The notes under the pieces: generated by a model
Databases searched by the model: none
What the model saw: only the letters and a program-made list of their open reading frames with translations
Told to the model about the DNA's origin: nothing
Shown: in pieces, positions 3,001-30,837 of the stretch
Position numbering within the stretch: position 1 is the first letter of the stretch
How the letters are laid out: every line of letters starts with the position of its first letter
Position numbers and translations under genes: made by a program
Assembly: GCA_020091685.1 (NCBI GenBank)
Contig: CM034594.1
Location: forward strand, 40,427,258-40,491,257
Source: Lutjanus erythropterus
Lineage: Eukaryota > Chordata > Actinopteri > Lutjaniformes > Lutjanidae
Length of the DNA stretch: 64,000 bases
Direction: 5' to 3'

Positions 3001-4711
3001 AACTGTGGGTGCTACAACGACGACTGTGGGTGCAACAACAACAACTGCTGGGGCCCCAACAGCAACTGCTGGTGCCACAGCAACTGCCGGTGCTACAAGA
3101 ACAACTGCTGGTGCCGCAACAACAACTGCTGGTTCTACAAGAACAACTGCTGGTGCCACAACAACCACTGTTGCTCCGACAACAACTGTGGTTGCCCCAA
3201 CAACAACTGCCGGTGCCACAACACCTGCTCGTGACACAACAACTGTGGGTGCTACAACGACGACTGTGGGTGCAACAACAACAACTGCTGGGGCCCCAAC
3301 AGCAACTGCTGGTGCCACAGCAACTGCCGGTGCTACAAGAACAACTGCTGGTGCCGCAACAACAACTGCTGGTTCTACAAGAACAACTGCTGGTGCCACA
3401 ACAACCACTGTTGCTCCGACAACAACTGTGGTTGCCCCAACAACAACTGCCGGTGCCACAACACCTGCTCGTGACACAACAACTGTGGGTGCTACAACGA
3501 CGACTGTGGGTGCAACAACAACAACTGCTGGGGCCCCAACAGCAACTGCTGGTGCCACAGCAACTGCCGGTGCTACAAGAACAACTGCTGGTGCCGCAAC
3601 AACAACTGCTGGTTCTACAAGAACAACTGCTGGTGCCACAACAACCACTGTTGCTCCGACAACAACTGTGGTTGCCCCAACAACAACTGCCGGTGCCACA
3701 ACACCTGCTCGTGACACAACAACTGTGGGTGCTACAACGACGACTGTGGGTGCAACAACAACAACTGCTGGGGCCCCAACAGCAACTGCTGGTGCCACAG
3801 CAACTGCCGGTGCTACAAGAACAACTGCTGGTGCCGCAACAACAACTGCTGGTTCTACAAGAACAACTGCTGGTGCCACAACAACCACTGTTGCTCCGAC
3901 AACAACTGTGGTTGCCCCAACAACAACTGCCGGTGCCACAACACCTGCTCGTGACACAACAACTGTGGGTGCTACAACGACGACTGTGGGTGCAACAACA
4001 ACAACTGCTGGGGCCCCAACAGCAACTGCTGGTGCCACAGCAACTGCCGGTGCTACAAGAACAACTGCTGGTGCCGCAACAACAACTGCTGGTTCTACAA
4101 GAACAACTGCTGGTGCCACAACAACCACTGTTGCTCCGACAACAACTGTGGTTGCCCCAACAACAACTGCCGGTGCCACAACACCTGCTCGTGACACAAC
4201 AACTGTGGGTGCTACAACGACGACTGTGGGTGCAACAACAACAACTGCTGGGGCCCCAACAGCAACTGCTGGTGCCACAGCAACTGCCGGTGCTACAAGA
4301 ACAACTGCTGGTGCCGCAACAACAACTGCTGGTTCTACAAGAACAACTGCTGGTGCCACAACAACCACTGTTGCTCCGACAACAACTGTGGTTGCCCCAA
4401 CAACAACTGCCGGTGCCACAACACCTGCTCGTGACACAACAACTGTGGGTGCTACAACGACGACTGTGGGTGCAACAACAACAACTGCTGGGGCCCCAAC
4501 AGCAACTGCTGGTGCCACAGCAACTGCCGGTGCTACAAGAACAACTGCTGGTGCCGCAACAACAACTGCTGGTTCTACAAGAACAACTGCTGGTGCCACA
4601 ACAACCACTGTTGCTCCGACAACAACTGTGGTTGCCCCAACAATAACTGCCGGTGCCACAACACCTGCTCGTGACACAACAACTGTTGGTGCTACAACGA
4701 CGACTGTGGGT
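1..4711 (+). repeat. 240-bp coding minisatellite, about 19.6 copies
   Basis: The sequence repeats every 240 bp (four 60-base lines) from the window edge to about 4711. I see no difference between copies until a C-to-T change at about 4643 and further changes from 4686. Each unit encodes 80 residues of the mucin-like protein. The near-perfect identity points to recent homogenisation by unequal exchange or gene conversion, or to repeat collapse or expansion during assembly. Confidence 0.95.
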
Positions 4712-7201
4712 GTGGGTGCTCCAACAACAACTGTGGGCGCAATAACAACGACTGCCGGTGCCATAACAACAACTGCAGGTGCCACAACACCTGCTCATGA
4801 TACAACAAGTGTTGGTGCTACAACTACGACTGTGGGTGCAACAACAACTGCAGGTGTCACAACAACGACCATTGCTCCAACAAGTGTCGGGGCTCCAACA
4901 ACAACTGTGGGTGCAACAACAACTACTGTGGGTGCCACAACAACTAATGTTCCGACAACAATCGCTGGTGCCACAAAAACAAGCAGTGCTTTGACAACAA
5001 CTGTCGGTGCCCCAAGAACTCTTGGTGCTACAACAATGGTGGCTCCTATATTAGCTGCTACTTGTGCTCCAACTAACATGGCTGCTCTGGAAACAACTGT
5101 AGGTGCCATAACAAAATCCACTGTTGGTCCGACAACAACTGTGTTTGCCCCAACAGCAACTGTGGTTGCTACAACAATATCTGCTGGTGCCACAACAACA
5201 ACCACTGTCCGTCCAACAACAACTGTGTTTGCCCCAACAACAAGTGTTGGTGCCACAACAACAACTGCTGGTCGTCCAAGAACAACTGCTGGGGCCACAA
5301 CAACAGCTATGGGTGCAACAACAACTGTAGGTGCCACAACAACTACTGTCTCGACAACAATCGCTGGTGCCACAAAAACAAGCAGTGCTTTGACAACAGC
5401 TGTCGGTGCTTCAAGAACTCCTGGTGCTACAACAACAACGGTGGCTCCTATATTAGTTGCTACTGGTTCCCCAACAAACATGGCTGCTCCAGAAACAACT
5501 GTAGGTGCCACTACAACAGCCACTGTTGGTCTGACAACATCTGTGTTTGCCCCAACAACAATTGCAGGTGCTACAACAACAACCACTGTTGGTCCGACAA
5601 CAATCATTAGTGCCCCAACAACCACTACTACTCCTACAACAACAACTGGAGGTTCCACAACAACTGCGCGTGACACAACAACCGTTGGTTCCACAACAAC
5701 GACTGTGGGTGCAACAAGAACAACTGCAGGTGCCACAACAACTACTGTCCTGACAACAATCGCTGGTGCCACAAAAACAAGCAGTGCTTTGACAACAGCT
5801 GTCGATGCCCCAAGAACTCCTGGTGCTACAACAATGGTGGCTCCTATATTAGCTGCTACTGGTGCCCCAACTAACATGGCTACTCCGGAAACAACTGTAG
5901 GTGCCACAACAACAGCCACTGTTGGTCCGACAACACCTGTGTTTTCCCCAACAGCAACTGCGGTCGGTACAACAATATCTGCTGGTGCCACAACAACAAC
6001 TACTGTCCGTCCGACAACAACTGTGTTTGCCTCAACAACAACTGTTGGTGCCACAACAACTATGGATGCCCCAACAACAACTGCTAGTACTACAAGAACA
6101 ACTGCAGGTGCCACAACAACTGCTCATGACAAAACAACTGCGGGTGCCACAACAAGTGCGCGTGACACAACAACTGTTGGTTCCACAACAACGACTGTGG
6201 GTGCAACAAGAACAACTGCAGGTGCCACAAGAACTACTGTCCCGACAACAATCGCTGGTGCCACAAAAACAAGCAGTGCTTTGACAACAGCTGTCGGTGC
6301 CCCAAGAACTCCCGGTGCTACAACAACAACAACTGTGGCTCCTATATTAGCTGTTACTGGTGCCCCAACAAACATGGCTGCTCTGGAAACAACTGTAGGT
6401 GCCATAACAAAATCCACTGTTGGTCCGACAACAACTGTGTTTGTACCAACAACAATTCCGGGTGCTACAACAACATCTGCAGGTGCCACAACAACTGCAA
6501 GTACTCCAGCAACATCTGTGAGTGCTGCAACAACAACGACGGGTGCAACAACAACAACTGCTGCCCAAATAAGAACTGCTGGAGTCACAACAACTGCAGG
6601 TGGTACAACAACATCTGGTGGTGCCACAACAACAACTGCTGTTTCGACAAAACCTGTGGGTGTTGCAACAACAGCTGGAAGTGCCTCAATAACAACTACT
6701 TCCTCGCCAACAACTTTGGGTGCCAGTAAGGCAACTGTTGGTTCCACAACAACAACTAAGGGAGATGGAATGATAATGGACGGTGTCACAGCAATGATTA
6801 CTGCCCCGAAAACAACAGCTGGTGCTTCAACAAGATCTACTGTACCAGCGACATCTGTGCATGCCACAACAACAACCGTGGGTGCAACAACAGCTGCAGG
6901 TGCCACAACAACTACAGTCCCGAAAACAGCCGCTGGTGCCAAAACAACAACTGCTGCTCTAACAACTTTAGGTGCCACCACAACAACTGTGGGTACCGTA
7001 ACAATAACTGCCGGTGCCAGAACAACAACTGCTACCACAGCAACAATTTCCGCTCCAACTATAGTCAAGTCTACCCCAACAACAGCTACTACTCCGACTG
7101 CCCCAACTACAACAACAAGTGCCCCAGCCAATGATGCCTGCTGTATCAGACTTGGTATGATCCATCTGCTGCTAGGACTCCTTATGTTTACCCTAATTTA
7201 G
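2..7201 (+). CDS. Mucin-like, Thr-rich surface protein (3' part; 5' end outside window)
   Basis: The frame is open from the window edge to a TAA at 7199-7201, so at least 2,399 residues are encoded and the start lies upstream. The protein is built from Thr runs separated by Gly-Ala, Val-Gly-Ala and Ala-Pro, which is the composition of a heavily O-glycosylated mucin domain. Residues from 1 to about 1570 are an 80-residue repeat. The next 800 residues are diverged variants with more Val, Ser and Pro. The last residues are SAPANDACC, a short spacer, then the hydrophobic IHLLLGLLMFTLI, with no cytoplasmic tail. That resembles a GPI-attachment signal; a tail-anchored membrane segment is the alternative. 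I chose this frame over another open frame in the array because it alone continues with the same composition for 2.5 kb beyond the array and ends in the hydrophobic tail. There are no EGF, SEA or VWD domains in view. It resembles no specific named mucin. Confidence 0.75.
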   Translation, partial: TTAGSTRTTAGATTTTVAPTTTVVAPTTTAGATTPARDTTTVGATTTTVGATTTTAGAPTATAGATATAGATRTTAGAATTTAGSTRTTAGATTTTVAPTTTVVAPTTTAGATTPARDTTTVGATTTTVGATTTTAGAPTATAGATATAGATRTTAGAATTTAGSTRTTAGATTTTVAPTTTVVAPTTTAGATTPARDTTTVGATTTTVGATTTTAGAPTATAGATATAGATRTTAGAATTTAGSTRTTAGATTTTVAPTTTVVAPTTTAGATTPARDTTTVGATTTTVGATTTTAGAPTATAGATATAGATRTTAGAATTTAGSTRTTAGATTTTVAPTTTVVAPTTTAGATTPARDTTTVGATTTTVGATTTTAGAPTATAGATATAGATRTTAGAATTTAGSTRTTAGATTTTVAPTTTVVAPTTTAGATTPARDTTTVGATTTTVGATTTTAGAPTATAGATATAGATRTTAGAATTTAGSTRTTAGATTTTVAPTTTVVAPTTTAGATTPARDTTTVGATTTTVGATTTTAGAPTATAGATATAGATRTTAGAATTTAGSTRTTAGATTTTVAPTTTVVAPTTTAGATTPARDTTTVGATTTTVGATTTTAGAPTATAGATATAGATRTTAGAATTTAGSTRTTAGATTTTVAPTTTVVAPTTTAGATTPARDTTTVGATTTTVGATTTTAGAPTATAGATATAGATRTTAGAATTTAGSTRTTAGATTTTVAPTTTVVAPTTTAGATTPARDTTTVGATTTTVGATTTTAGAPTATAGATATAGATRTTAGAATTTAGSTRTTAGATTTTVAPTTTVVAPTTTAGATTPARDTTTVGATTTTVGATTTTAGAPTATAGATATAGATRTTAGAATTTAGSTRTTAGATTTTVAPTTTVVAPTTTAGATTPARDTTTVGATTTTVGATTTTAGAPTATAGATATAGATRTTAGAATTTAGSTRTTAGATTTTVAPTTTVVAPTTTAGATTPARDTTTVGATTTTVGATTTTAGAPTATAGATATAGATRTTAGAATTTAGSTRTTAGATTTTVAPTTTVVAPTTTAGATTPARDTTTVGATTTTVGATTTTAGAPTATAGATATAGATRTTAGAATTTAGSTRTTAGATTTTVAPTTTVVAPTTTAGATTPARDTTTVGATTTTVGATTTTAGAPTATAGATATAGATRTTAGAATTTAGSTRTTAGATTTTVAPTTTVVAPTTTAGATTPARDTTTVGATTTTVGATTTTAGAPTATAGATATAGATRTTAGAATTTAGSTRTTAGATTTTVAPTTTVVAPTTTAGATTPARDTTTVGATTTTVGATTTTAGAPTATAGATATAGATRTTAGAATTTAGSTRTTAGATTTTVAPTTTVVAPTTTAGATTPARDTTTVGATTTTVGATTTTAGAPTATAGATATAGATRTTAGAATTTAGSTRTTAGATTTTVAPTTTVVAPTTTAGATTPARDTTTVGATTTTVGATTTTAGAPTATAGATATAGATRTTAGAATTTAGSTRTTAGATTTTVAPTTTVVAPTITAGATTPARDTTTVGATTTTVGVGAPTTTVGAITTTAGAITTTAGATTPAHDTTSVGATTTTVGATTTAGVTTTTIAPTSVGAPTTTVGATTTTVGATTTNVPTTIAGATKTSSALTTTVGAPRTLGATTMVAPILAATCAPTNMAALETTVGAITKSTVGPTTTVFAPTATVVATTISAGATTTTTVRPTTTVFAPTTSVGATTTTAGRPRTTAGATTTAMGATTTVGATTTTVSTTIAGATKTSSALTTAVGASRTPGATTTTVAPILVATGSPTNMAAPETTVGATTTATVGLTTSVFAPTTIAGATTTTTVGPTTIISAPTTTTTPTTTTGGSTTTARDTTTVGSTTTTVGATRTTAGATTTTVLTTIAGATKTSSALTTAVDAPRTPGATTMVAPILAATGAPTNMATPETTVGATTTATVGPTTPVFSPTATAVGTTISAGATTTTTVRPTTTVFASTTTVGATTTMDAPTTTASTTRTTAGATTTAHDKTTAGATTSARDTTTVGSTTTTVGATRTTAGATRTTVPTTIAGATKTSSALTTAVGAPRTPGATTTTTVAPILAVTGAPTNMAALETTVGAITKSTVGPTTTVFVPTTIPGATTTSAGATTTASTPATSVSAATTTTGATTTTAAQIRTAGVTTTAGGTTTSGGATTTTAVSTKPVGVATTAGSASITTTSSPTTLGASKATVGSTTTTKGDGMIMDGVTAMITAPKTTAGASTRSTVPATSVHATTTTVGATTAAGATTTTVPKTAAGAKTTTAALTTLGATTTTVGTVTITAGARTTTATTATISAPTIVKSTPTTATTPTAPTTTTSAPANDACCIRLGMIHLLLGLLMFTLI
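4950..6420 (+). repeat. Diverged higher-order repeats in the mucin tail
   Basis: A block encoding IAGATKTSSALTT followed by a VAPILAATGAPTNMA-like segment occurs four times. Its anchor, ATCGCTGGTGCC, starts at about 4961, 5360, 5759 and 6251, so the spacings are about 399, 399 and 492 bp. Copies differ by scattered substitutions. This is an older array layer than the perfect 240-bp array just upstream and stays in the same reading frame. Confidence 0.8.
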
Positions 7202-14230: not shown

Positions 14231-17196
14231 AGAAATCCTGCATGTAGTATTAGTATTAGTATTACACGTCTATAAACTGGGGGACGTGACTAAAAAAGGA
14301 GAGATCCAGATCAGTGTTACAAAAATATCCTGACTTGTTACTCAAGCCTAAAAACAAGCTTCACACCACAAGTTTATAACCCAGGCTCACAGTTCAGCCC
14401 AGATACCCGAGATGAAATCATCTGAGTGGTTTTGATGACGGTTGAACTGGCTAGAATTTCTATTTACACCTGCAAGTGCAGTATGAGGTCTGTGCTTTTT
14501 TGGTTTGTTTTCTAGGAAGAAAAAAATAAAGTTAAAAAGTAGTGCCTCACTATAACTATATATATGTATGTATATATATATATATGTCCTGCTGTTGACT
14601 ACACTACTCCCTGTCTGCTGTCGTGACCCTGTGAACACTGGTAAGACTGGCAAACACTACCTGGAACCCTGGCTGCATTAGTTCTGAAGATGAAAATTTT
14701 GTGTGTATGCACACATTCGAAGCAGCTGAATCTGATCATTTCTCTCTTCTGTTTGTTACTTTTAACATGGTGATCACAACCACACCTTCCCTTTTCTACT
14801 CACACCTTTCAAAGTACATTATAGTTTAATTTCCTGTTTACTTACATCACAAAGATCTCTTCTTCTGGTTGGTTTATGTTCTAGTATATTTGTCTATATA
14901 GAAGCAAGTACCATTTTATTAGGTACATAAATCCTTACGGAGGTTATAATGGTCAGTTTTTGTCATGTTGCTTTTTTAGAGAAGTGTTATTACTTTAAGG
15001 TCATTTCAGGGACTGAGAGGTGTTCATATTTTTATATATATGTGTGTGTGTATACAGTATATATGGCTGTTTCTTCAGTTTCTGACTCATATTACTATTA
15101 TTTATTGTTAAAAATGAACCTCTGAATCTTAATATTAATATATTTAATAATATAATGTATAGATTAATAGGTATCCAAAACTGCATAAACAGAATATACA
15201 GAATTTTTGAAACCTGAGATGCACTTTATCCCTGAATGCCTAAAAACTGAACAGGGCTTTGCACATTATTCACATCAAATTTATATCCAGTTTCACCAAC
15301 AACTACTCGGAATAGTTTTAAGATATTTATCCTGTACAGTGGGTGTAAATAATTATCTATATCTATGGATTTTCCAGTCATCTCATCCTATTTAATAAAT
15401 TGTTCTAAAGCTTTTGGTAAATTTTAAATTTAGCAATAAAAGCAATGCTCTGTGAGAGCACTTTGTGAGGATTGGGGTAAAGGTCACTGGCAGGGAGCTT
15501 TAGGTCTAAAATGCTTTTTTGAACACTGAATAGTTGTTTCTGCTGAGAGACTGAATTTGGATGTTTAATTCTCAAGTAAGTCTGAATCATCCTAAGCAAG
15601 AGCAGGATCATGATGCCCGTGTGGAATATAGAGAAACATTCAGAGTGCGTGAAGTAAAGGTTTGTATTGGACCCTGAAAGCTTTTGGCTCAACAGAAATA
15701 ACATAAAATATATGTTAAATGTTAATGATTTAGCAAACCAAACTACATGTAAGATTCAGATATGAGATGAAGAATGTGTTCAGGTTAAGTAGCTGTGTTA
15801 AATGCACTTGTTTGAAATTCAATGATCCCATGATGTGATGTTTGCAAGTTATTCAATTATTCTCATTTCAAACATAAAAAAACACATTTTGATGTTCTTA
15901 AAAATCAACAATATACAATTATAAACATATTCAGGCCAACATAAGCTATAGTCCTGATTATTTCTGTGTAGTAGCTGCTAAAATACCAATATCTACATGT
16001 ATTTTTTTCAAATCATGTTGTTTTCCTAAGCCACCTTTTTGTTTGCATTAGTGCATTGATTAGACCACATTATTGTTGTTAAAATTGCTATTTCTTTCAA
16101 CATTTTTCATTCATTCTTGATTTACTTCGGTTCTTGTCTGCCACCGTAGTGTCTCTCAAAGTGGGCGTGTTTTGGACTCTGCAGCTGCTTCGCTTCTTGT
16201 TAGTTGTTAAGATTTTAATCTGGAACATATTTATTTTTTCATGGTTTTCACTATTTGTTCTTCTACATTTGATCTTACTACATTTCATGATTTTCTCTAC
16301 TCAATCAAAATTTAGACAGTAACCCTAGATGTCAGTTGTGTTCAAACACAGTTGCTTTTTATTACAGATATTGCAATTCTAACCCATAAATAAATGTTAA
16401 AATAACTTTTTCAAATAAAAATCACAATAATTACTAAAAGAAAACAGTAATGACATCTTTAATCTTTTCTCTTTAGGTGGACCTTCTTTCAGTGGTTTAA
16501 GTGGCTTTTTTATCACTGAAACTGTCCACAGCAGTTCATTGCATAGCTTCCATACTGGTACCCCTTTCTGCTTCATCAAACTGGAGGACTGTCAATCACC
16601 ATCTGTTATAGTTAAGAAACTGGCTGTTGTAAAGTATCTCATACAACCACACTTCAAATAATCTGAACTATCCCTTTAAAGGTTTGGAAGGGTAGATCTG
16701 AAGTGCATCATATATTCAAGCCATCCAGCAACACTCAGCCTACCTGTGCCTCAACACAACAGCTAATAATGAAGTATAGCAGCGTGCAAACTTGTCAGCC
16801 AACAGTGTTTAATCCACAGCAGGGTCTGAAATGAATTAACAGCTGCAAAATGCCGTCCGCTAATAAAATATCACTCAAGACGGTAACAGTGGCAGTAACA
16901 CAGATGCCTCTGATACTAACTGAGTCATGTTGTATTTCATGTTTGAATTACAAACTCCTTCCACTGTGTGAGTGAGCAAACTGCAAATCTAAAAAAATGA
17001 CACATTTTGAAACTATTGCAAAAAATGTCCATTTATTTTGACCAACTCTTCACAGTTTTTCTTAAGTTTACAAAGTCTTGGCAAAAACTTAATTTCAAGC
17101 ACTGTTCTGAAAACACAGATTCAATATGGCTGGATAATGAAAACTGTAAAAGTTCTTATATAAGCTTTGAATATTCACTCATGGTATATAATTGGT

Positions 17197-17198
<2 letters not shown>

Positions 17199-17228
<30 letters not shown>
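17199..17228 (+). repeat. (CA)n microsatellite
   Basis: An uninterrupted run of about 15 AC dinucleotides. Confidence 0.95.
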
Positions 17229-17230
<2 letters not shown>

Positions 17231-18189
17231 CTCCTTGCATGCAGCTATTACTACCACCAATGTTTTTGTGTACTGCTGGAACTAGCGTTACAGGTTGAGT
17301 CGATTGCTGTAAAATCTGAGTTCTGCATTCAATCCAGTTTGGTTGGTCTGTTTGCTTCTTACAGCAATTATCAATTTGTAATATCTGTTCAATTCATGTC
17401 ATTTCAGATTATACGCACAAAATGAGATGTGGCAAGAAAAGTGTACTGTTCCTGCCTCAGCAGAATAAAGTTGGCTTTACAGATGTTTTCATATTTGGAC
17501 ATTTTATGACTGAACAATAAACATAATGTATACATGACAGAAGAGTACAAAAGGTATATAATATAGAGTGATAGTATAACTCTAAAACTATGAAAACTTA
17601 CTCAGTTAAAAAATATAATTTACATCTACAAAAAGTATACTGATTTTTGAATGCACCCTTGTTTTGAATGATTCTTATGAATTGGTGTAAATCAAGAGTT
17701 CTTGGAAAAAATTACATTAAAAAAATGACACGAAAAAGGATATTTTGAAAATAATTAAATAAAATTACATCCAATTAAAATGAATGAAGAAATACTACAA
17801 TATTTCATAATAATAAATTAAGTTTTTTTTGCAGTTTCTTCAATTATGTCACAGATTGTTGGTTTATTTAAAGATATTTTACACAATGTACTATATAATT
17901 ATTTGCTTAATGTATTTAATAATTAATATTATGGGGTTCCGAAATGCTCCAAGTTAAGTAATAATTTACTGGTTGCCAGTCTTGATCCCCACTAGGGGTC
18001 GCCAAAGCTTCACAGAGAGTTGTAGGGCCTTCTACTATTACAGTAGGTTTACACTGAATTTTAGCATTTCATCATGTCTGTGAATAAAACTAAATGAAGA
18101 TGTTCATTTTAAAGTTTAGTTTACTTGTAACTATTACATTATATATCATATTCTATTATATACTTTCTTCTTATTTTCTTCTTATTGCT

Positions 18190-18589: not shown

Positions 18590-18817
18590 CTAATTTGATC
18601 TGACCATAGAAACCTCGCAAGACTCATCCACTTGACTCGTCTCTTTCTCACGCAGGACCAGTTTGCTCAGAGTGTGATCTTCCTCGTCAGACTCAAATGC
18701 CAGGAATTTAGTCGTGTGCAGAGAAGACTGGAGCAAGTACATATCATTAGATATTTCAGTTTCCATCCGGTAGAACACTGCCCTGTGTGCACCATCTGGA
18801 ATATGCTCTGGAAGATT
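18590..18817 (-). CDS. il18: il18 last coding exon
   Basis: The exon starts after a pyrimidine-rich TTTTTTCTCTAG acceptor and encodes NLPEHIPDGAHRAVFYRMET to VSMVRSN-stop, the C-terminal third of IL-18. It joins the previous exon in phase 0 (AVEM|NLPE). It lies outside the duplicated block and exists once in the window. Confidence 0.88.
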   Translation of the reverse strand, partial: NLPEHIPDGAHRAVFYRMETEISNDMYLLQSSLHTTKFLAFESDEEDHTLSKLVLREKETSQVDESCEVSMVRSN

Positions 18818-21800
18818 CTAGAGAAAAAACAACACATGTAGCAAACCTGATTTCTCCATAATTCATTAATCATTCATTTCATCAGTATTCAGGTGATGCC
18901 TGTCAGCTTGTAACTTCATTCAGAAACACGGCCGTGCCAATTTTATAATTAGAGATGAAACAGTATTAAAAATTAGTATCTTTATTATAGTGACCAAAAC
19001 TAGCATTGTTAAAATGTGCTGAAAATGTTCAATAAGTACAGATACATGGCACTGAAATCACTTCAACAAGGTTTAAACTAAAAAACTTGAAGTCCTGTGA
19101 TGTTAAACCCACGTTGCTGCTGCATCAACATCTGGGAGACTGTTTGTAACTTTGGTTGATGCTGGGTAGTATGTACTATGAGTCTTTCAAAAAATCAATA
19201 ATCAACACGGTTATCATGATAATATAATTTTGAAATGGCAGCAATAATTGTCTAAGCAAATTTTATCGTGATTTAACATCAAACTGATTATTGTTTCATC
19301 AGTAGTTACAACATTACTAATACAATATACTGTATCTACCTTTTAGTAAAACCTTCAAAAAACATCTGTTTGTTTCAAGTGTTCTTTAGTGATGTTGTAA
19401 TATTTCAACCTGCCTTGTCTACCTGCAGTTCAGTTTGTGATTTTGCATTCTTCCCAAAATTTAATTCATTCAGTATATTCAGGTTGTGAGCTGAACTCAT
19501 TTTTTGGACACATAATGTTGCTGAACCTCGACCTGAGCAACTGAAGCAACCCCAGATCATAACACTGCCCCCACAGGCTTGTACAGTAGACACTAGGCAT
19601 GATGGGAGCTCATCAGACTCATCAGACCACATGACTTTTTTCAATTGCTTAATGGATCTTCAGTCCATTGAATCTTTATGTTCCCTTGCAAATTGAAGCC
19701 TTTTTTTCTGATTATCTTAAGGCTACACAGCTGTTTAGTCCCAGTCCCTTGAGTTCTCTTCACATAGTGTACGTGGAAATGCTCTTACTTTCACTATTAA
19801 ACACAGCAATGAGTTGATTTTTTTTACAATTTGATTTCACCAAATGTTGAAGTGATCTCCGATCATCATCATTCAATTTTTTTCTAACCACATTTCTTCC
19901 TTGAAGATGATGGTTCACCACTATCCTTCCAGGTTTTAATAATGTTTTGGACAGTTCTTAACCCAGTTTTAGTAGTTCCATCAATCTTTTTAGTTGTTTT
20001 CTTTGCTTGATGCAGGTCAATAATTTGACCCTTATGAAACAGCGTAACATCAGGATATGTCTTCTGACATGGTTGTTTAAGAAATGAGAAGCTCCTCACT
20101 GCATCAGTTGGAGTTAAATAACTTGTTATCAGCTGAAACATATTAATCACTGCAGTAATTATCTAACGGTAGGATCTTAACTATTTGCTGTGTTAAATCC
20201 TGGTGGTAACTTTTTTTTTTTCTTTTGGTCAGGCAGTGTCGTTACGTTCATATTCATATTTTTGTAATCTGGTCACATAATCCCAATTACATGCAATCAA
20301 GTACCACCTAACCCTGAAAACTGACATATATGAAACAAAACAAATATTGATAATAATGAAATAATGAATAATGGTGATAAAATCATGACTCATATGGCAA
20401 TCTCAATATAATATTTAGAAATGTTTCGAAATATTTTAGTATGATTTCCACAGTATTTTTGACAGACGTATCAGATCACAGACAAAAAAGAGGTCCAAAG
20501 GTTGTCTGTCAGAATATTCTCACATGAAGCAAAGGGTCCTGTATGAGGTTGCTTTGATAACAGAACCACTCGAGCTTCACTTCACACTCTGTAAATAACT
20601 GTAAATTATTTGTTTACACTCACCATTTCCACAGCACAAATTTCATCCCTCTCATTGCAGGAAACCACCATCTTCTTGTCATCTTTATTGGTGTACAGGA
20701 TGAGCGCCCTCCCTTTCTGCGCTGCATCTCTGCTCATGTCTTTGTAAAACTGGACATTGAATTTACATGCTAAAGAGGAAACACCGGGTCAGCAAGATGA
20801 AAAATCAGCATGTCACAGAATGATGGAGGATTGTTGTTATAGAAATGCAAATTTTGATGATTTGATTTTTTTAAAGAGTATTGTCATGTTTTGACCTCTT
20901 GTCTGCTGTGACTGTGCATTGATGTTTATGTTTCCTTTTTAGTGTTAGAGGTGGGGCAGGGCAGGATACCCCTGTGCCCCTGGGGCAAGATGGCAATGAT
21001 CTATTTGAACACACCTTGAGTAAATCAAAACCCTTGTGCCTCGAGCTTTCAACTTGCGCTTTAGATCAGTGTAAGATAGCGCCCATAAGGACTGTACTCT
21101 TTTCTGGCAAACAGTAGGAATTTCATACGTGATTATGTCACTAATATCTAAGATTTCTATGCAATTGGTCATCTGGGACATATACAGGTGTCTCACTACA
21201 TGCAGTCTGGGTTACTACTATGTCTGCTAGTGGCTGCTATTCCTCACAGGAATTCCATGTATCATGTTAGCCAGTGGTAGCCATAAAAAAGTTCATCATT
21301 ATTTACCTCTAATAAAACTTCCAGCAAATTGTTTTATTTCTAAATGCTTAAAGTGTCCATACAGAAGCTGACATGAAATTTTTGCAAAGGCCCAGAGTTG
21401 AGTACATGCCTTTAACTGTTTATAGAACTGGAAACCTGTCTATACAGGCTAAATTAAAGTCTTATCTTGTGCCGTATTTGATAGAATCTTACCAGGTTGA
21501 CATTGGTGTGCTGCTTTAAATTGTTCTTCATCATTTAAAAACAGGAATTTTCTGTCGTTGCTTTGGATCAAATATCGGTCAACTGAGGTATTGGTTGAAA
21601 TGTCGAAAACGTCCACATGAACATCATCCATGCCTGATAGGAAAGCATGTTGGACCAAGAAAATGTCAAGCACAAGCATTCACTACTTGTACATTCAACT
21701 CTAAATGAAGGATGAAGGAGAAATGAGACTGAGGAAATTATAAAAAAAAAAAGTATAAACAGCACCAGTCAAAAGTTTGGACACACCTTCTCATTCAGTG

Positions 21801-23842
21801 TTTTTTCTTTATTTTTATTACTTGTAGATTCATACTGAAGACATCAAAACTATGAAGGAACACATATGGAATGATGTAGTAAACAAAAAAGTGTTAAACA
21901 AACCAGAATATGTTTTATATTTTAGATTCTTTGAAGTAGCCACCTTTTGCTTTGATGACAGCTTTGCACACTCTTGACATTGTCTCAGTCAGCTTCATGA
22001 GGCAGTCACCTGGTTTTCCAGCAGTCTTGAAGGAGTTCCCAGAGATGCTGAACACTTGTTGGCTGTTTTGCCTTGGTTAAGTGTGCCTTGAGTTTTGAAT
22101 AAATCACCAACAGTGTCACAGCAAAGCACCCCCACACATCACACCTCCTCCTCCATGCTTCACAGTGGGAACCAGGCATGTAGAAACCATCCGCTCACCT
22201 TTTCTGCATCTCACAAAGACACGGCGGGTGAAACCAAAGATCTCAAATTTGGACTCATTAGACCAAAGTACAGATTTCCACTTGCCTAATGTCCATTCCT
22301 TGTGTTTCTTGGATCAAACAATTCTCTTTTTCTTGTTGTTCTTCCTCAGTAGTGGTTTCTTTGCAGCTATCCATGAAGGCCTGATTCTGTGAAGCATTTA
22401 TGTGGGCTCTAATCTGAGGTGCTGTTAATTTGCTGTTTCTGAGGCTGGTAACTCTGATGAACTTATCCGCTGCAGCAGCAGAGGTAACTCTTGGTCTTCA
22501 TTTCCTGAGGTGGTCCTCATGAGAGTCAGTTTCATCATAGCATTTGATGGTTTTTATGACTGCACTTGAGGATACATTCAAAGTTCTTAAAATCTTCCAG
22601 ATTGACTGACCTTCATGTCTTAAAGTAATGATGGACTGTTGTTTCTCTTTACTTAGTTGAGTGGTTCTTACCATAATATGGATTATAACAGTAGTCAAAT
22701 AACTAAACTGTGTACCAACCCTAATTCTGCACAACACAACTGATGGTCTCAAACACATTAAAACTCTTGACAAGGCACATCTATTTACTGAAAACCATTC
22801 CATGTGACTGCCTCATGAAGCTGATTGAGAGAATGTCAAGAGCAGAGGTTGTGCTAGACTTTTTCGTTGTCTGTCATTTTGACTGACAGGGTCATAAAAA
22901 TCCCGTCATAATCTATTTTTACCCGTCATTTTAATTTTTAAAATGATAATAATTACATATTCAATAGCATTTACTTTTCATTCATTTTAAATTAATATTC
23001 AGGCCGAACAAGCTGAACAGAGAATCCACACCGTACCTCTTTTATCAACACCATCATCGTTTTTGGGCTTTTTGAAGAAACTTCAGCTGCTGTGACACTA
23101 GCTGTGACACTACTCTCTCGTAAGTCTACTGAAAACTGTCCGACTTGACTGCAGCTTTTTGTCTCCACCTCCTGCTGTGGCCTGTAGCCCTAATAGCTAA
23201 TTAATATGCTCACTCGCCACCAAGTGGTCAGGAGTGTGAATTGCAACCTGTCAAAATGACAGATGACCTTCAGATTTTTCTGTCACCGTTTTAAAAAACC
23301 AGTCAACGACGGAAAATATTCGGTTAACGCGACCCCTGGTCAAGAGTGCAAAGCTGTCATCAAAGCACTTTGAAGAATCTAAATGGTTTGTTTTGTTAAC
23401 TACATAATTCCATGTCTTCCTTCATAGTTTTGATGTCTTTAGTATGAATCTACAAAGTAGAAAGTAATAAAAATAAAGAAAAACCATTGAATGGGAAGGT
23501 GTGTCCAAACTTTTGACTGGTATACACATATATTTTTTGATGTGTGTGTATAACAGAAACAAACAATATAAGAATTGACTTACCAGTTCCAGCCTCTTTA
23601 TAAATGCAGAGCAGTGGACAGTAAAAGAGAGGTTTTCAGGATTTATATACAAACACTCAAAAACTGGATTACGGAATATGTTAAAATTACAATAATTACA
23701 ATATATGAAATATTACTATCATATAAGAGTTATATGTAATTCGCGTATTGAGAATGAGTATGAAATAACTTTTACCCTGGAAGTAGAAGGCCGTCTTACA
23801 AATACCAACATATTTCATTGGGCGGCAGCCATTGGTAGCCAT
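18590..23842 (-). CDS. il18: Interleukin-18, five coding exons, 197 aa
   Basis: Exons (+ coordinates, read right to left): 23842-23776, 23595-23584, 21633-21493, 20769-20624 and 18817-18590. All introns have GT/AG ends and the phases match, giving 594 nt with a TAG stop. The protein starts MATNGCRPMKYVGICKTAFY. It continues with VDVFDIST, QSNDRKFLFLND and CKFNVQFYKDM, then LILYTNKDDKKMVV, NLPEHIPDGAHRAVFYR and FLAFESDEEDHTLSKLVLRE. This is the IL-18 fold order of the IL-1 family, a secreted cytokine that acts through the IL-18 receptor to drive interferon-gamma. There is no signal peptide, as expected. Asp34 in VHVD|VF aligns with the caspase-1 site of human pro-IL-18 (Asp36), so mature protein would begin at Val35. 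Length fits the family. Introns hold Tc1 and hAT insertions, and exons 2-5 are duplicated at 25626-28917. The 5' UTR exon is uncertain. Confidence 0.88.
19405..20150 (-). mobile_element. Tc1/mariner transposase remnant in il18 intron
   Basis: Two minus-strand fragments are recognisable. The N-terminal helix-turn-helix part (19884-20150) has FHKGQIIDLHQAKKTTKKI, TGLRTVQNIIKTWKDSG and SSSRKKCG. The catalytic part (19405-19644) has VMWSDES, SCLVSTVQACGGSVMIWGCF and NILNEL. The order fits Tc1 transposase, but the middle and C-terminus are degraded. I did not find clear terminal inverted repeats. It is dead and sits in the intron before the last il18 exon. Confidence 0.75.
20624..20769 (-). CDS. 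il18: il18 exon encoding CKFNVQFYKDM...
   Basis: A 146-nt exon with acceptor TTTAG and donor GTGAGTG. It encodes CKFNVQFYKDMSRDAAQKGR, ALILYTNKDDKKMVVSC and ICAVEM. The left boundary of the large duplication (20662) falls inside this exon, so the second copy has only part of it. Confidence 0.87.
21493..21633 (-). CDS. il18: il18 exon with the caspase-site region
   Basis: A 141-nt exon bounded by CTATCAG and GTAAGATT. It encodes MDDVHVDVFDISTNTSVDRY then LIQSNDRKFLFLNDEEQFKA, including Asp34, the presumed caspase-1 P1 residue. It starts with the last two bases of a Gly codon completed by the microexon. Confidence 0.87.
21765..23520 (-). mobile_element. Tc1-like transposon, copy A, in il18 intron
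   Basis: Terminal inverted repeats start CCAGTCAAAAGTTTGGACAC at 21765 and mirror that sequence at 23520. The similarity continues inward for over 100 bp. The right end abuts TA, the Tc1 target; on the left the dinucleotide is CA. The minus strand encodes the transposase N-terminus MVRTTQLSKEKQQSIITLRH and NVSSSAVIKTIKCYDETDSH, then scattered later segments, so the transposase is not functional. A 496-bp hAT MITE interrupts it. Confidence 0.85.
22843..23338. mobile_element. hAT MITE nested in the Tc1-like element, copy A
   Basis: The 496-bp insertion is bounded by a perfect 8-bp direct repeat GTCAAGAG (22835-22842 and 23339-23346). Ends are CAGAGGTTGTGCTAGAC and, in reverse complement, CAGGGGTCGCGTTAACC, typical of hAT. 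There is no transposase. The nesting shows that the hAT insertion is younger than the Tc1 insertion. Confidence 0.85.
23584..23595 (-). CDS. il18: il18 12-nt microexon
   Basis: Reading AGGCTGGAACTG on the minus strand, it is flanked by a pyrimidine-rich acceptor ending TTATAAAG and by donor GTAAGTCA. It adds E-A-G-T and supplies the phase needed to join FYFQ to GMDD; no longer exon here gives a consistent frame. From memory, human IL18 also has a 4-residue alternative segment at this point, which supports a conserved microexon. Confidence 0.75.
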
Positions 23843-23851
23843 CAGATAGAC
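23776..23851 (-). CDS. il18: il18 first coding exon
   Basis: It follows a TTTTTTTTCCCACCAG acceptor. Nine bases of 5' UTR precede the ATG at 23842-23840, and the donor is GTAAAAG. It encodes MATNGCRPMKYVGICKTAFYFQ, a good match to the N-terminus of fish IL-18 proteins. The acceptor implies at least one upstream untranslated exon. Confidence 0.85.
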
Positions 23852-24275
23852 CTGGTGGGAAAAAAATGATTTTTTGATTGTGGAATACAGTGTATATTTG
23901 CAAAGCGATTGTCTTTTTTTTTTGGCATACTATCTCATTTAGAGATACTATACCATTATGTTGAGAAATTTTCTCATTATGTTGAGTACTAACACAAGTT
24001 TCTTGTGACTTACAGGCTCTGTTTTCATTACAGTGACAGAAATGGACTTCCATACAAAACAAACAAATAAGGGACACAACAGATAAGGGAAAAGGGACAA
24101 ACATTAGGTGCTTGTTGGATAAATCAGTGAAGCTGTGTTCACAATCACTTTGCACCTCATAACAGACAAAAACTTTTGTTAACAAGCTTTTAAACCATGA
24201 CCTGTGCTATAATGTTATTTTATGTATAATAATAATAATAAGTTTGCTGTTCAATATGATAAATATTAGCTAAGA

Positions 24276-25056
24276 CAGAGCCACATGCGGTTCTTCAGCT
24301 TCTCTCCAGTGGCTGTCTGTGACTTTGGCAAAAAATGATATGGAAATGAATAACATTATTTAATTAACATATTTTTCATGGTTCATTGTTGTAGGTCTAT
24401 GAAAAAGTTGAGACAGCTCAAAATTTCAAGCCAACACACTAGTACATCAGTTTTGAGCCCAAGTCAAATTCTTCAGTTTTGAAAAAGTTTTACCAACTAC
24501 TGATCTTTTGTTGAGATAATTTACTTTTCTTCTTTAGATACATTTAAATATTTGAATTTTAGAAATCCCAAAATGTTGTATTATCATGTAACCCATTTAA
24601 TTTTAAGGCAACAAAATAGTAACAAATCAGGTTCACAGTTAACTGTGACAAAATTTTGAAAAACATTTTTTTTGAGTTTCTTTAACTTTAACTTTTACTA
24701 TAAATTTATCTAAGGAATAATAATAAATTATCTCAACTAAAGGTCAGCAGAAACTTTATAAAAGTTTGAGCTGGGCACAAAACTAAAATCAATTGCAGTA
24801 TGTTGTACACCAAATTTCAAAAAATGTGTTAATAATTCATCAACTAAAATATGCATCAAAAACTGTGTCTATTGCTCGGTGTCTTTTCCTCTAAATTGTG
24901 ATGGTGCCTCGTCTTCTTGAGCCTCCATAAGCTATGGCTGCCAACAAAAAGTCTTCAGGGAAAAGAGAGCATTTAATAGTTGTGGCTCTAGACAGATTTT
25001 TTCCCCCTTTTCTGGCCAAAAATGGCTCTTTTGATTATAAAGGTTGCAGACACCTG
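24276..25056. mobile_element. Non-autonomous hAT-like element, copy 1
   Basis: The right end in reverse complement reads CAGGTGTCTGCAACCTTTAT followed by AATCAAAAGAGCCATTTTTG, a known type of hAT terminus. The left end has AGAGCCACATGCGGTTCTTC and a CTCCAGTGGCTG stretch. The internal part resembles 29405-29920. No coding sequence is seen. Confidence 0.55.
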
Positions 25057-26696
25057 TCTTAGATGCTTTGAATTGCCAGTGTGTGAATGGATTGTAACCT
25101 GAATTAAAAAATAAGTCCTTCTTTGTAAAGGACTTTGGCATTTTTTTTACCGAAAAATCCAACCTGATGGTTTTGCATGTGCCTTGGCTCTCTTCAGCTC
25201 CCCTACAGAGATGACAGTGTGCAACACTTGCTAACATTAGAAACACAAATCTAACTATACATAGCTCATCTCTCAATATGATGTTGTCAAACACGTTGTC
25301 TTGTGACATGTCACTGTTTTACCCCACATCTAGTGTAAGCATGCACAAGAGAACTGATTTAGCATTGATTATTTATTAAAAGTTTGCCTGCATTGATTAA
25401 ATTTTGGCTAAAAGAGGAGTTTTCTGTTAAAATATTTCTTTTTAATGAACTGGATACTGTCGTCCTTTCTTATCTCTCTCCTTTCTATCTTTCCTTTTTT
25501 TCGTAAAGTGACTGTAACCTGTTTCTTCGTCAGCTCTAGTTCCTGTTCTGTTTCTGTTTAAATAAAGGTTCATTACCAACTGTCCCGAATTTCTGGTGCT
25601 GCTGGGTCCTAAGTACACCGTTACAAAACCACCATCTTCTTGTCATCTTTATTGGTGTACAGGATGGCGCCTCCTTTCTGCTGCTGCATCTCTGCTCATG
25701 TCTTTGTAAACTGGACATTGAATTTACAGCTAAAAGGAAACACCGGGTCAGCAAGATGAAAATCAGCATGTCACAGAATGATGGAGGATTGTTGTTATAG
25801 AAATGCAAATTTTGATGATTTGATTTTTTAAGAGTATTGTCATGTTTTGACCTCTTGTCTGCTGTGACTGTGCATTGATGTTTATGTTTCCTTTTTAGTG
25901 TTAGAGGTGAGGCAGGGCAGAATACCTGTGCCCCTGGGGCAAGATGGCAATGATCTATTTGAACACACCTTGAGTAAATCAAAACCCGTGCCTCGAGCTT
26001 TCAACTTGCGCTTTAGATCAGTGTAGATAGCGCCATAAGGACTGTACTCTTTTCTGGCAAACAGTAGGAATTTCATACGTGATTATGTCACTAATATCTA
26101 AGATTTCTATGCAATTGGTCATCTGGGACATATACAGGTGTCTCTACATGCAGTCTGGGTGCTACTATATGTCTGCTAGTGCTATTCCTCACAGGAATTC
26201 CATGTATCATGTTAGCCAGTGGTAGCCATAAAAAAGTTCATCATTATTTACCTAATAAAACTTCCAGCAAATTGTTTTATTTCTAAATGCTTAAAGTGTC
26301 ATCAGAAGCTGACATGAAATTTTGCAAAGGCCCAGAGTTGAGTACATGCCTTTAACTGTTTATAGAACTGGAAACCTGTCTATACAGGCTAAATTAAAGT
26401 CTTATCTTGTGCCGTATTGATAGAATCTTACCAGGTTGACATTGGTGTGCTGCTTTAAATTGTTCTTCATCATTTAAAAACAGGAATTTTCTGTCGTTGC
26501 TTTGGATCAAATATCGGTCAACTGAGGTATTGGTTGAAATGTCAACGTCCATGAACATCATCCATGCCTGATAGGAAAGCATGTTGGACCAAGAAAATGT
26601 CAAGCACAAGCATTCACTACTTGTACATTCAACTCTAAATGAAGGATGAAGGAGAAATGAGACTGAGGAAATTATAAAAAAAAAGTATAAACAGCA

Positions 26697-28420
26697 CCAA
26701 TCAAAAGTTTGGACACACCTTCTCATTCAGTGTTTTTCTTTATTTTTATTACTTGTAGATTCATACTGAAGACATCAAACTATGAAGGAACACATATGGA
26801 ATGATGTAGTAAACAAAAAGTGTTAAACAAACCAGAATATGTTTTATATTTTAGATTCTTTGGAAGTAGCCACCTTTGCTTTGATGACAGCTTTGCACAC
26901 TCTTGACATTGTCTCAGTCAGCTTCATGAGGCAGTCACCTGGTTTTCCAGCAGTCTTGAAGGTTCCCAGAGATGCTGAACACTTGTTGGCTGTTTTGCCT
27001 TGGTTAAGTGTGCCTTGAGTTTTGAATAAATCACCAACAGTGTCACAGCAAAGCACCCCCACACATCACACCTCCTCCTCCATGCTTCACAGTAGGAACC
27101 AGGCATGTAGAAACATCCAGCTCACCTTTTCTGCATCTCACAAAGACACGGCGGGTGAAACCAAAGATCTCAAATTTGGACTCATTAGACCAAAGTACAG
27201 ATTTCCACTTGCCTAATGTCCATTCCTTGTGTTTCTTGGATCAAACAATTCTCTTTTTCTTGTTCTTCCTCAGTAGTGGTTTCTTTGCAGCTATCCATGA
27301 AGGCCTGATTCTGTGAAGCATTTATGTGAGCTCTAATCTGAGGTGCTGTTAATTTGCTGTTTCTGAGGCTGGTAACTCTGATGAACTTATCCGCTGCAGC
27401 AGAGGGGTATCTTGGTCTTCATTTCCTGAGGTGGTCCTCATGAGAGTCAGTTTCATCATAGCATTTGATGGTTTTATGACTGCACTTGAGGATACATTCA
27501 AAGTTCTTAAAATCTTCCAGATTGACTGACCTTCATGTCTTAAAGTAATGATGGACTGTTGTTTCTCTTTACTTAGTTGAGTGGTTCTTACCATAATATG
27601 GATTATAACAGTAGTCAAATAACTAAACTGTGTACCAACCCTAATTCTGCACAACACAACTGATGGTCTCAAACACATTAAAACTCTTGACAAGGCACAT
27701 CTATTTACTGAAAACCATTCCATGTGACTGCCTCATGAAGCTGATTGAGAGAATGTCAAGAGCAGAGGTTGTGCTAGACTTTTCGTTGTCTGTCATTTTG
27801 ACTGACAGGGTCATAAAAATCGTCATAATCTATTTTTTACCCGTCATTTTAATTTTTAAAATGATAATAATTACATATTCAATAGCATTTACTTTTCATT
27901 CATTTTAAATTAATATTCAGTCGAACAAGCTGAACAGAGAATCCACACCGCCTCTTTTATCAACACCATCATCGTTTTGGGCTTTTTGAAGAAACTTCAG
28001 CTGCTGACACTAGCTGTGACACTACTCCTCGTAAGTCTACTGAAAACTGTCCGACTTGACTGCAGCTTTTTGTCCACCTCCTGCTGTGGCCTGTAGCCCT
28101 AATAGCTAATTAATATGCTCACTCGCCACCAAGTGGTCAGGAGTGTGGTGCAACCTGTCAAAATGACAGATGACCTTCAGATTTTTCTGTCACCGTTTTA
28201 AAACCAGTCAACGACGGAAAATATTCGATTAACGCGACCCTGGTCAAGAGTGCAAAGCTGTCATCAAAGCACTTTGAAGAATCTAAATGGTTTGTTTGTT
28301 AACTACATAATTCCATGTCTTCCTTCATAGTTTTGATGTCTTTAGTATGAATCTACAAAGTAAAAGTAATAAAAATAAAAAAACCATTGAATGGGAAGGT
28401 GTGTCCAAACTTTTGACTGG
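26697..28420 (-). mobile_element. Tc1-like transposon, copy B
   Basis: The counterpart of the element at 21765-23520, duplicated with its host block. The left end reads CCAATCAAAAGTTTGGACAC and the right end TTTTGACTGGTA. It holds the same transposase remnant (MVRTTQLSKEKQQSIITLRH) and the same nested hAT MITE. Confidence 0.85.
27763..28242. mobile_element. hAT MITE nested in Tc1, copy B
   Basis: Flanked by the same 8-bp repeat GTCAAGAG (27755-27762 and 28243-28250) as copy A, so it was copied with the block and did not insert independently. 480 bp long. Confidence 0.85.
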
Positions 28421-29014
28421 TATACATATATTTTTTGATGTGTGTGTATAGAAACAAACAATATAATTGACTTACCAGTTCCAGCCTCTTTATAAATGCA
28501 GAGCAGTGGACAGTAAAAGAGAGGTTTTCAGGATTTATATACAAACACTCAAAAAACTGGATTACGGAATATGTTAAAATTACAATAATTACAATATATG
28601 AAATATTACTATCATATAAGAGTTATATGTAATTCGCGTATGAGAATGAGTATGAAATAACTTTTACCCTGGAAGTAGAAGCCGTCTTACAAATACCAAC
28701 ATATTTCATTGGTGCAGCCATTGGTAGCATCAGATAGACCTGGTGGGAAAAAATGATTTTTGATTGTGGAATACAGTGTATATTTGCAAAGCGATTGTCT
28801 TTTTTGGCATACTATCATTTAGAGATACTATACCATTATGTTGAGAATTTTCTCATTATGTTGAGTACTAACACAAGTTTCTTGTGACTTACAGGCTCTG
28901 TTTTCATTACAGTGACAATTTCTGCCTATTTGTAACAAAGTATTTTAGTATTGCTAATATTACTTGAGAAAAGGACATGAGTATTTCGTCCAACACTGCT
29001 GGTGATTCTTTTAC

Positions 29015-29210
29015 TGTGGTGAAATGTAACTAAGCACATTTACTCAAGTACTGTACTTAACTACAAACACAAGGTACTTGTATTTCCTTTTTATGCTTCT
29101 TTATACTTCTACTCCATGACATCTCGGAAGCACATATTGAACTCAACTACATTTGTCTTACAGCTTCAGTTGCTAGTTACAGATTACATGTTGTCACACC
29201 CAACCTGTCC
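29015..29210. repeat. Fragment of a CAGTGGTGGA-type hAT MITE
   Basis: GAAATGTAACTAAGCACATT and TACTCAAGTACTGTACTTAA match the terminal region of the MITE seen at 58099-59053. The fragment lacks both complete ends. Confidence 0.5.
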
Positions 29211-29404
29211 AGTTAAAACCACTTATCTCCAAATGTGTTGGTTCTGAATGTTTGTGATAAACTGGGGGTTAAAAGGTAGTGTAAGCATGATTTGTCCAAG
29301 CTGTTTGCAAATGGGCCAGAACATTCCAGGACATCAAATACCAATGTTTTGGGCTGGTGAAACATCCCGAGCACAGCAAAATACTGAGAAACTAAGGAAA
29401 TACA

Positions 29405-29799
29405 TCCAGGCAAAAAAGTTTTACCAACAACAAATCTTTTGACATATTTTTTTCTTCTTTGGATAAATTTAAAAATTTTGAGTTTTAGAAACCCAAAAGA
29501 GTTGAATTTAAAAAGTCATTCAGTAAATCCATTGAAGTGAAAGCGAATGATGGTTAAAATTTGTAATATTTTCAATTAAAAGCATTTCATTTTCAAATAC
29601 CAAAGTAATGACACATCAGGTTCACAGCTCACCGTGACTAATTTTGAAATACATTTTTTAGTTTCTAAAACTCAAAGATTTCATTTTTCTTTCTAAAGAA
29701 AAGTAAATTGCCTCAACTAAATATCATAGGTCAGCAAAACTTTTAAAATATTATTTCAAAGCCCAAGAGTTTAAGTTGGGCTAAAAACTCATTTTTTGC

Positions 29800-29834
<35 letters not shown>

Positions 29835-29920
29835 GTGTAAATGGATTTATACATTCTTTAACTTTAAAAATATGTTTGGCCAAAAATGGCTCTTTTGATC
29901 GTAAAGGTTGCAGACCCCTG
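29405..29920. mobile_element. Non-autonomous hAT-like element, copy 2
   Basis: The right end in reverse complement reads CAGGGGTCTGCAACCTTTAC and continues as in the copy ending at 25056. Internal segments such as AAGTTTTACCAAC, ATCAGGTTCACAG and CTCAACTAAATATC also match. A long poly-T tract lies at about 29800-29830. It is not part of the 3.4-kb duplication, so it is a separate insertion of the same family. Confidence 0.55.
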
Positions 29921-30837
29921 AGCTAAGATAATCACACTGTGGTGGGTGTTACATATTAAGCTTTCTCTTTATCTGTTCTCCAAATACAGGGAAATGCTGC
30001 TTGTGAGCTATTTGCTGTACGTCCCACTAACTAAACACTCGAACATACAACAAGATGTAGGGTATAAAAAATCCCCCAGTCTAAATTACTGCCTAATTTT
30101 CCATCATGCCAAGCTCTTGACAGAGTAGTTGGTTAACTATAATTTTATGTTCCAAAATGCAAATATTACTTTTTGTGTTTTGTGTCTGTTGTTCAGAACA
30201 TGGTGGTTTATGTAGGTAATTGTTATTTTTGTGCTATTTTATTTTTAGATTTGTTACCTCCACAACCACCTGGTGACCCCCAGAAATGATCTTGTGACCC
30301 CTGCGGGGGCCCGTTGACCAGGTTGAAGCCCACTTGCACAAAATACCGAGTTATACTACACTACGATGAAGGGCTTGTAACGGTCACAGTTTTTCACTGA
30401 CTAGTTTGACTGTTTCGTCATAAGAGAATGATAGTGTTGAGTCACAAAACGTTTGTGAACAGACTGCAGATTATTATTTGCTATAAACAGACGTTAAAGT
30501 GTTACCTGTCAGCAGGTAAAATTTAACTCTCGGCTAAAGTTTGTCACCAAAGTGTTGTAACATACCAACACATAACCTACCTTTAGTGATGTGGAGAAAG
30601 CTGGAGGCTGTTTTTCCTCAGACGGCACGTTCACACACTCCTTTAAATTAAGGCATCAGACAGAAAAAATAATATCTCAATAAAAGTCTTCAAACTGAAG
30701 TACCTAATTAATGTCGTTCAATTTATTTCCATTATAATTTTTCTGTCACTGGAGATGCAGCATAGTTATGACAAATTAAAGGTTTGAAGTTTTAAAATAA
30801 CTGCATGCAGATATATTATCTTTACCTAGAATATTAC

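Follow-up and report, generated by a model that had tools for sequence, protein, structure and literature searches.

A repeat of il18 exons 2-5 that is very probably a false duplication, with indel-dominated noise in one copy and a patchwork of distant-locus sequence around it

The two direct copies of exons 2-5 in the il18 gene described here very probably do not both exist in the chromosome: the second, copy B, is best understood as a false duplication, produced by a repeat-driven misassembly that took in unpolished il18 sequence. We favor this reading because the differences between the copies are dominated by indels that are limited to B and the repeat end adjoining it, and because B is surrounded by a patchwork of pieces from distant loci. 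The window, i.e. the whole 64-kb stretch of DNA analysed (C4:40427258-40491257), belongs to a 937.6-Mb genome that was read as teleost, and il18 lies on its minus strand. Four il18 exons joined together, with the putative exon 3 left out, recovered the IL-18 chains of PDB in a phmmer search (best E 2.3e-4), in agreement with the gene identity given in the preliminary description; a Pfam search with three partial il18 sequences returned no family match. The exons on the A side and the last coding exon are:

23777-23842, minus strand: il18 exon 2 with start codon, intact (exon reading)
23584-23661, minus strand: il18 putative exon 3 (by-eye reading)
21494-21634, minus strand: il18 exon 4, intact (exon reading)
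20624-20770, minus strand: il18 exon 5, intact (exon reading)
18593-18817, minus strand: il18 last coding exon, intact, 69% identical in the paralogue (exon reading)

A BLAST comparison of the window against itself delineates the two copies inside the gene, which align end to end with 96.8% identity over 3384 columns (E=0):

20662-24038, minus strand: copy A, the native il18 segment, with exons 2-4, part of exon 5, a Tc1-like element and a nested MITE (alignment, flanks)
25626-28917, minus strand: copy B, a noisy duplicate of A, with exons 2, 4 and 5 broken and the putative exon 3 readable (alignment, exon reading)

The duplication had been reported earlier with these limits, as had its sharp breakpoints and the exons, Tc1 insertion, nested MITE and MITE target duplication common to both blocks, and all of these elements were recovered in A and B. 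The inverted ends of the Tc1-like element lie in A at 21764-21888 and 23391-23521, and the nested MITE is accompanied in each copy by the 8-bp target duplication CTCTTGAC, found in the following regions:

22835-22853 and 23328-23346: CTCTTGAC regions in A
27755-27773 and 28233-28250: CTCTTGAC regions in B

With 40 of 1238 genome candidates scored, the full Tc1+MITE block was seen in A and B and at no third place. Both blocks have sharp edges, that at 25626 being the one inside a coding exon (exon 5), and on both sides of A the flanks follow the same order as in an inverted paralogue. The exons of A are open throughout. In B exons 2 and 4 are frameshifted and exon 5 is both shifted and cut, with 12 indels in 394 bp of exon, and the putative exon 3 still reads. 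The broken set stands 5' of the intact one, as had been stated, and were the duplication real the primary transcript would cross the broken exons before reaching those of A. The further proposal that a real duplication forces exon skipping is not supported, as the indel-dominated noise of B and the patchwork around it point to a false duplication.

What the first inspection had not seen is that nearly all A/B differences are small deletions in B. In a global alignment B shows, relative to A, 59 deletions, 6 insertions and 10 substitutions, i.e. 59 of the 65 indels are deletions in B (binomial p 5e-12), of which 34 remove 1 bp, 19 remove 2, four remove 3 and two remove 4. The 1-bp deletions fall in tandem or homopolymer context in 26 of 34 cases, against 47% of positions, and the 2-bp deletions in 9 of 19, against 18% of positions. 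They hit exons, introns and transposons alike, and the last noise event in B is at 28845. Six of the ten substitutions change a plus-strand G to A, and some of the others adjoin indels. We applied one aligner and one counting rule throughout to A/B and to nine other repeat pairs of the neighbourhood, which are a selection out of the listed pairs, and in all nine substitutions outnumber indels (Fisher p against A/B, 1e-5 to 4e-19). The ratios of substitutions to indels in these pairs are:

71-kb locus pair: 20:11
C15 pair: 12:6
16465-17560 and its paralogue: 20:8
other six pairs: 58:10, 39:15, 22:3, 10:3, 21:6 and 72:26

The 65 indels against 10 substitutions of A/B are, to judge from the assembled sequence, a long-read error profile.

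The inverted paralogue, a second il18-like gene, is situated about 80 kb away at window-equivalent 103000-117300 (C4:40530257-40544557). Its exons 2, 5 and 6 have 67-81% protein identity to il18; an exon-3-like stretch contains a stop, and exon 4 is weak. The stretch 16465-17560 is 93% identical to its counterpart there, far above most of the remainder. A genome search with 24000-24300 returned only its own locus, the paralogue (81%), 39 bases at the edge of B and a 55-base match on C17. In the paralogue 24074-24275 and 29921-30037 have counterparts that adjoin each other, overlapping by the 8 bases AGCTAAGA. As the two flanks adjoin at this empty site, 24276-29920 can be recognized as an insert relative to the paralogue intron, from which, as had also gone unseen, it is missing in its entirety. 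It is bounded by:

24268-24275, plus strand: hAT-like 8-bp target duplication AGCTAAGA, left copy, single in the paralogue (paralogue comparison)
29921-29928, plus strand: hAT-like 8-bp target duplication AGCTAAGA, right copy (paralogue comparison)

Insertion of a hAT-type MITE generates an 8-bp target duplication. The il18 insert resembles such an event in the duplicated AGCTAAGA and the empty paralogue site, but differs from it in that its two ends resemble different MITE copies and enclose some 4-5 kb of other sequence.

Two comparisons, one with the paralogue and the other with MITE lengths, bear on the polarity of the differences, and both assign most of the missing bases to B. At 21 of 24 gaps of B the diverged paralogue has the base; it lacks it at one, and two are mixed. 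Four gaps are placed in A, and at three of these (two of them at alignment ends) the paralogue has the base, at one it does not. For substitutions as placed by the paralogue aligner, the paralogue agrees with A in 16 cases and with B in 4, and in 3 it matches neither copy. Among the 6 insertions the paralogue sides with B at least once, at window 23658, so A itself may not be perfect. Within the nested MITE, the span of window 22843-23112 measures 270 bp in A and 262 bp in B, and the copies listed from the genome with exactly this span (n=16) measure 272 bp in 15 cases and 271 bp in one, which puts A close to the correct length and leaves B short of bases.

Together with B the insert comprises five pieces:

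24276-24854, plus strand: piece 1, left part of a hAT MITE, presumed native to the il18 intron (alignment)
24855-25501, plus strand: piece 2, 100% identical over 647 bp to C4 window-equivalent 71731-72377 (alignment)
25502-25625, minus strand: piece 3, terminus of an interspersed LTR-like repeat, TGTAAC on the minus strand (genome search)
25626-28917, minus strand: piece 4, copy B
28917-29926, plus strand: piece 5, copy of C15:12131432-12132427 (minus strand), 96.8% (alignment)

Piece 1 and the copy 47 kb downstream (71 kb) are separated by 20 substitutions and 10-11 indels. Piece 2 is noise-free and contains the MITE right end, the target duplication TCTTAGAT of the 71-kb locus and some 437 bp of the sequence flanking that locus. 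Piece 5 has diverged from C15 to an ordinary degree, with 12 substitutions and 6 indels (about 1.2% by substitution), and ends in a hAT MITE end, where the C15 target sequence is a different one, AGCTAACA. Over its first ~85 bases piece 3 matches two genome copies of the repeat exactly, and its last ~40 are without an A and a TAT found in both compared copies and also miss two single bases present in one of them only. With 40 of 110 candidates scored, this repeat was listed at 37 other places (best 95%), in 36 of which it ends within query 180-192; B starts at 187. Its copies at C16:4346857 and C22:6669613 have the common terminus TGTAAC (minus strand) and different flanks. Noise is confined to B and this adjoining repeat end, the neighbouring pieces being clean, and as it is found on both sides of the junction between repeat and exon 5, that junction was probably within the noisy sequence and not a later join. 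An inserted LTR-like element would meet its target at just this position.

Directly observed are the noise with its polarity, the patchwork and the empty site in the paralogue, and from these we infer the following assembly steps. The real chromosome would most likely carry one il18 exon 2-5 set, that of A, and its native intron 5' of exon 2 would hold a simple hAT MITE, inserted at AGCTAAGA. At this intron MITE the assembler may have made a mis-join, whereby the left side continued into sequence flanking the sister MITE that lies 47 kb downstream, and the right side into sequence flanking a MITE of a different chromosome, with unpolished long-read il18 sequence, possibly that of the other haplotype, serving as the filling between. 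Nanopore data are deletion-rich, and the deletion richness of B would fit a nanopore-like sequencing platform.

False duplications in vertebrate assemblies, as treated in PMC9516828, comprise heterotype and homotype forms, the latter resulting from accumulated long-read errors; also described there are exons falsely duplicated within one scaffold, and depth-gaps that arise when gaps are filled incorrectly, the depth-gap being an alternative criterion to the N gap. The il18 copies are like these cases in being partial-gene, exon-level duplicates on the same scaffold, and unlike them in being without an N gap and in that sequence from distant loci surrounds B. Two marks of a false duplication are present, namely a near-identical copy nearby on the same scaffold and differences of the sequencing-error type in one copy (B). 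Several observations count against misassembly. The 64-kb window is without N, hence there is no N gap between the copies. At the 28917 edge no repeat was seen to be common to the two sides, and the 12 substitutions and 6 indels of the C15 piece show that it was not simply copied from C15 as assembled. The 71-kb and C15 pieces are clean, so a single raw read cannot account for the whole insert, and this candidate was rejected. Furthermore, preferential mapping of short reads to A can leave even a real duplicate unpolished.

One form of the misassembly, the probability of which overlaps with that of the misassembly at large as its sub-case, is that B represents the il18 of the other haplotype placed in series (a heterotype) and bearing an LTR-like element in its exon 5. 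We regard this as a real possibility, somewhat short of an even chance. In its favor B starts right at the terminus of the repeat (187, the 36 of 37 copies listed from 40 of 110 candidates scored ending at 180-192), two copies with different flanks have that terminus in common, and the B-like deletions extend into the last ~40 bp of the repeat, placing the junction inside the noisy sequence. However, the putative insertion is seen from one side only, a chimeric read or chance could have produced the same picture, and all 10 substitutions may be errors. That a real, segregating il18 allele with an LTR-like element in coding exon 5 has left its trace in the noisy block we would advance tentatively and with more doubt than confidence; such an allele would disrupt one of the two il18-like genes. 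The sequence hints at it, and it should be taken as a lead and not as a result.

A further alternative is that the insert is real, having entered the il18 intron through the hAT MITE by complex templated insertion, i.e. serial template switching (FoSTeS/MMBIR), with pieces from the 71-kb locus on C4, the LTR-like repeat, il18 and C15, and with B just badly polished. Complex templated insertions of this kind are chains of short copied segments from several loci, and the il18 insert is likewise such a chain: its pieces copy existing loci at high identity, in one case at 100% over 647 bp, entry is within MITE homology and exit at a MITE end, and only 10 substitutions separate A and B in about 3.3 kb. 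It is unlike these insertions in that its noise is in one segment only, B with the repeat end, the adjacent pieces being clean. About four or more switches would be required, and the C15 piece, with its divergence of about 1.2% by substitution, does not look freshly copied from the assembled allele. We therefore consider a templated insertion rather unlikely. An older true tandem duplication of exons 2-5, with B decayed as a pseudogene, is highly improbable, for even though the coding sequence of B is not spared from indels, 65 indels with 10 substitutions do not fit ordinary decay of this kind, given the substitution excess in the nine comparison pairs, and the 1.6-kb spacer between A and B is not repeated after B, except for MITE-family similarity (72-93%). 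Old pseudogene decay was rejected on the former count and a simple tandem duplication on the latter, the copies showing no head-to-tail unit with a junction adjoining both and ordinary divergence.

On present evidence il18 should be read as having one exon set, that of copy A, a reading for which a false duplication of B is our preferred basis. If left uncorrected, the insert would yield a wrong gene model for il18, an immune gene, with duplicate broken exons and apparent exon skipping, and might be mistaken for a gene gain. The ratio of indels to substitutions and the polarity of indels, set against neighbouring repeat pairs, constitute a read-free test that could flag similar artefacts.

Elsewhere in the neighbourhood, 2757 N (window-equivalent 64001-66757), a gap or a withheld stretch, stand right after the window end, and a single N is found at window-equivalent 87202. 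Positions 1-4712 of the window form a tandem array of a 240-bp unit (19.6 copies, 99%), and 1-6641 have a 21-bp period, of which one frame, chosen by eye, would read as Thr-rich and mucin-repeat-like.
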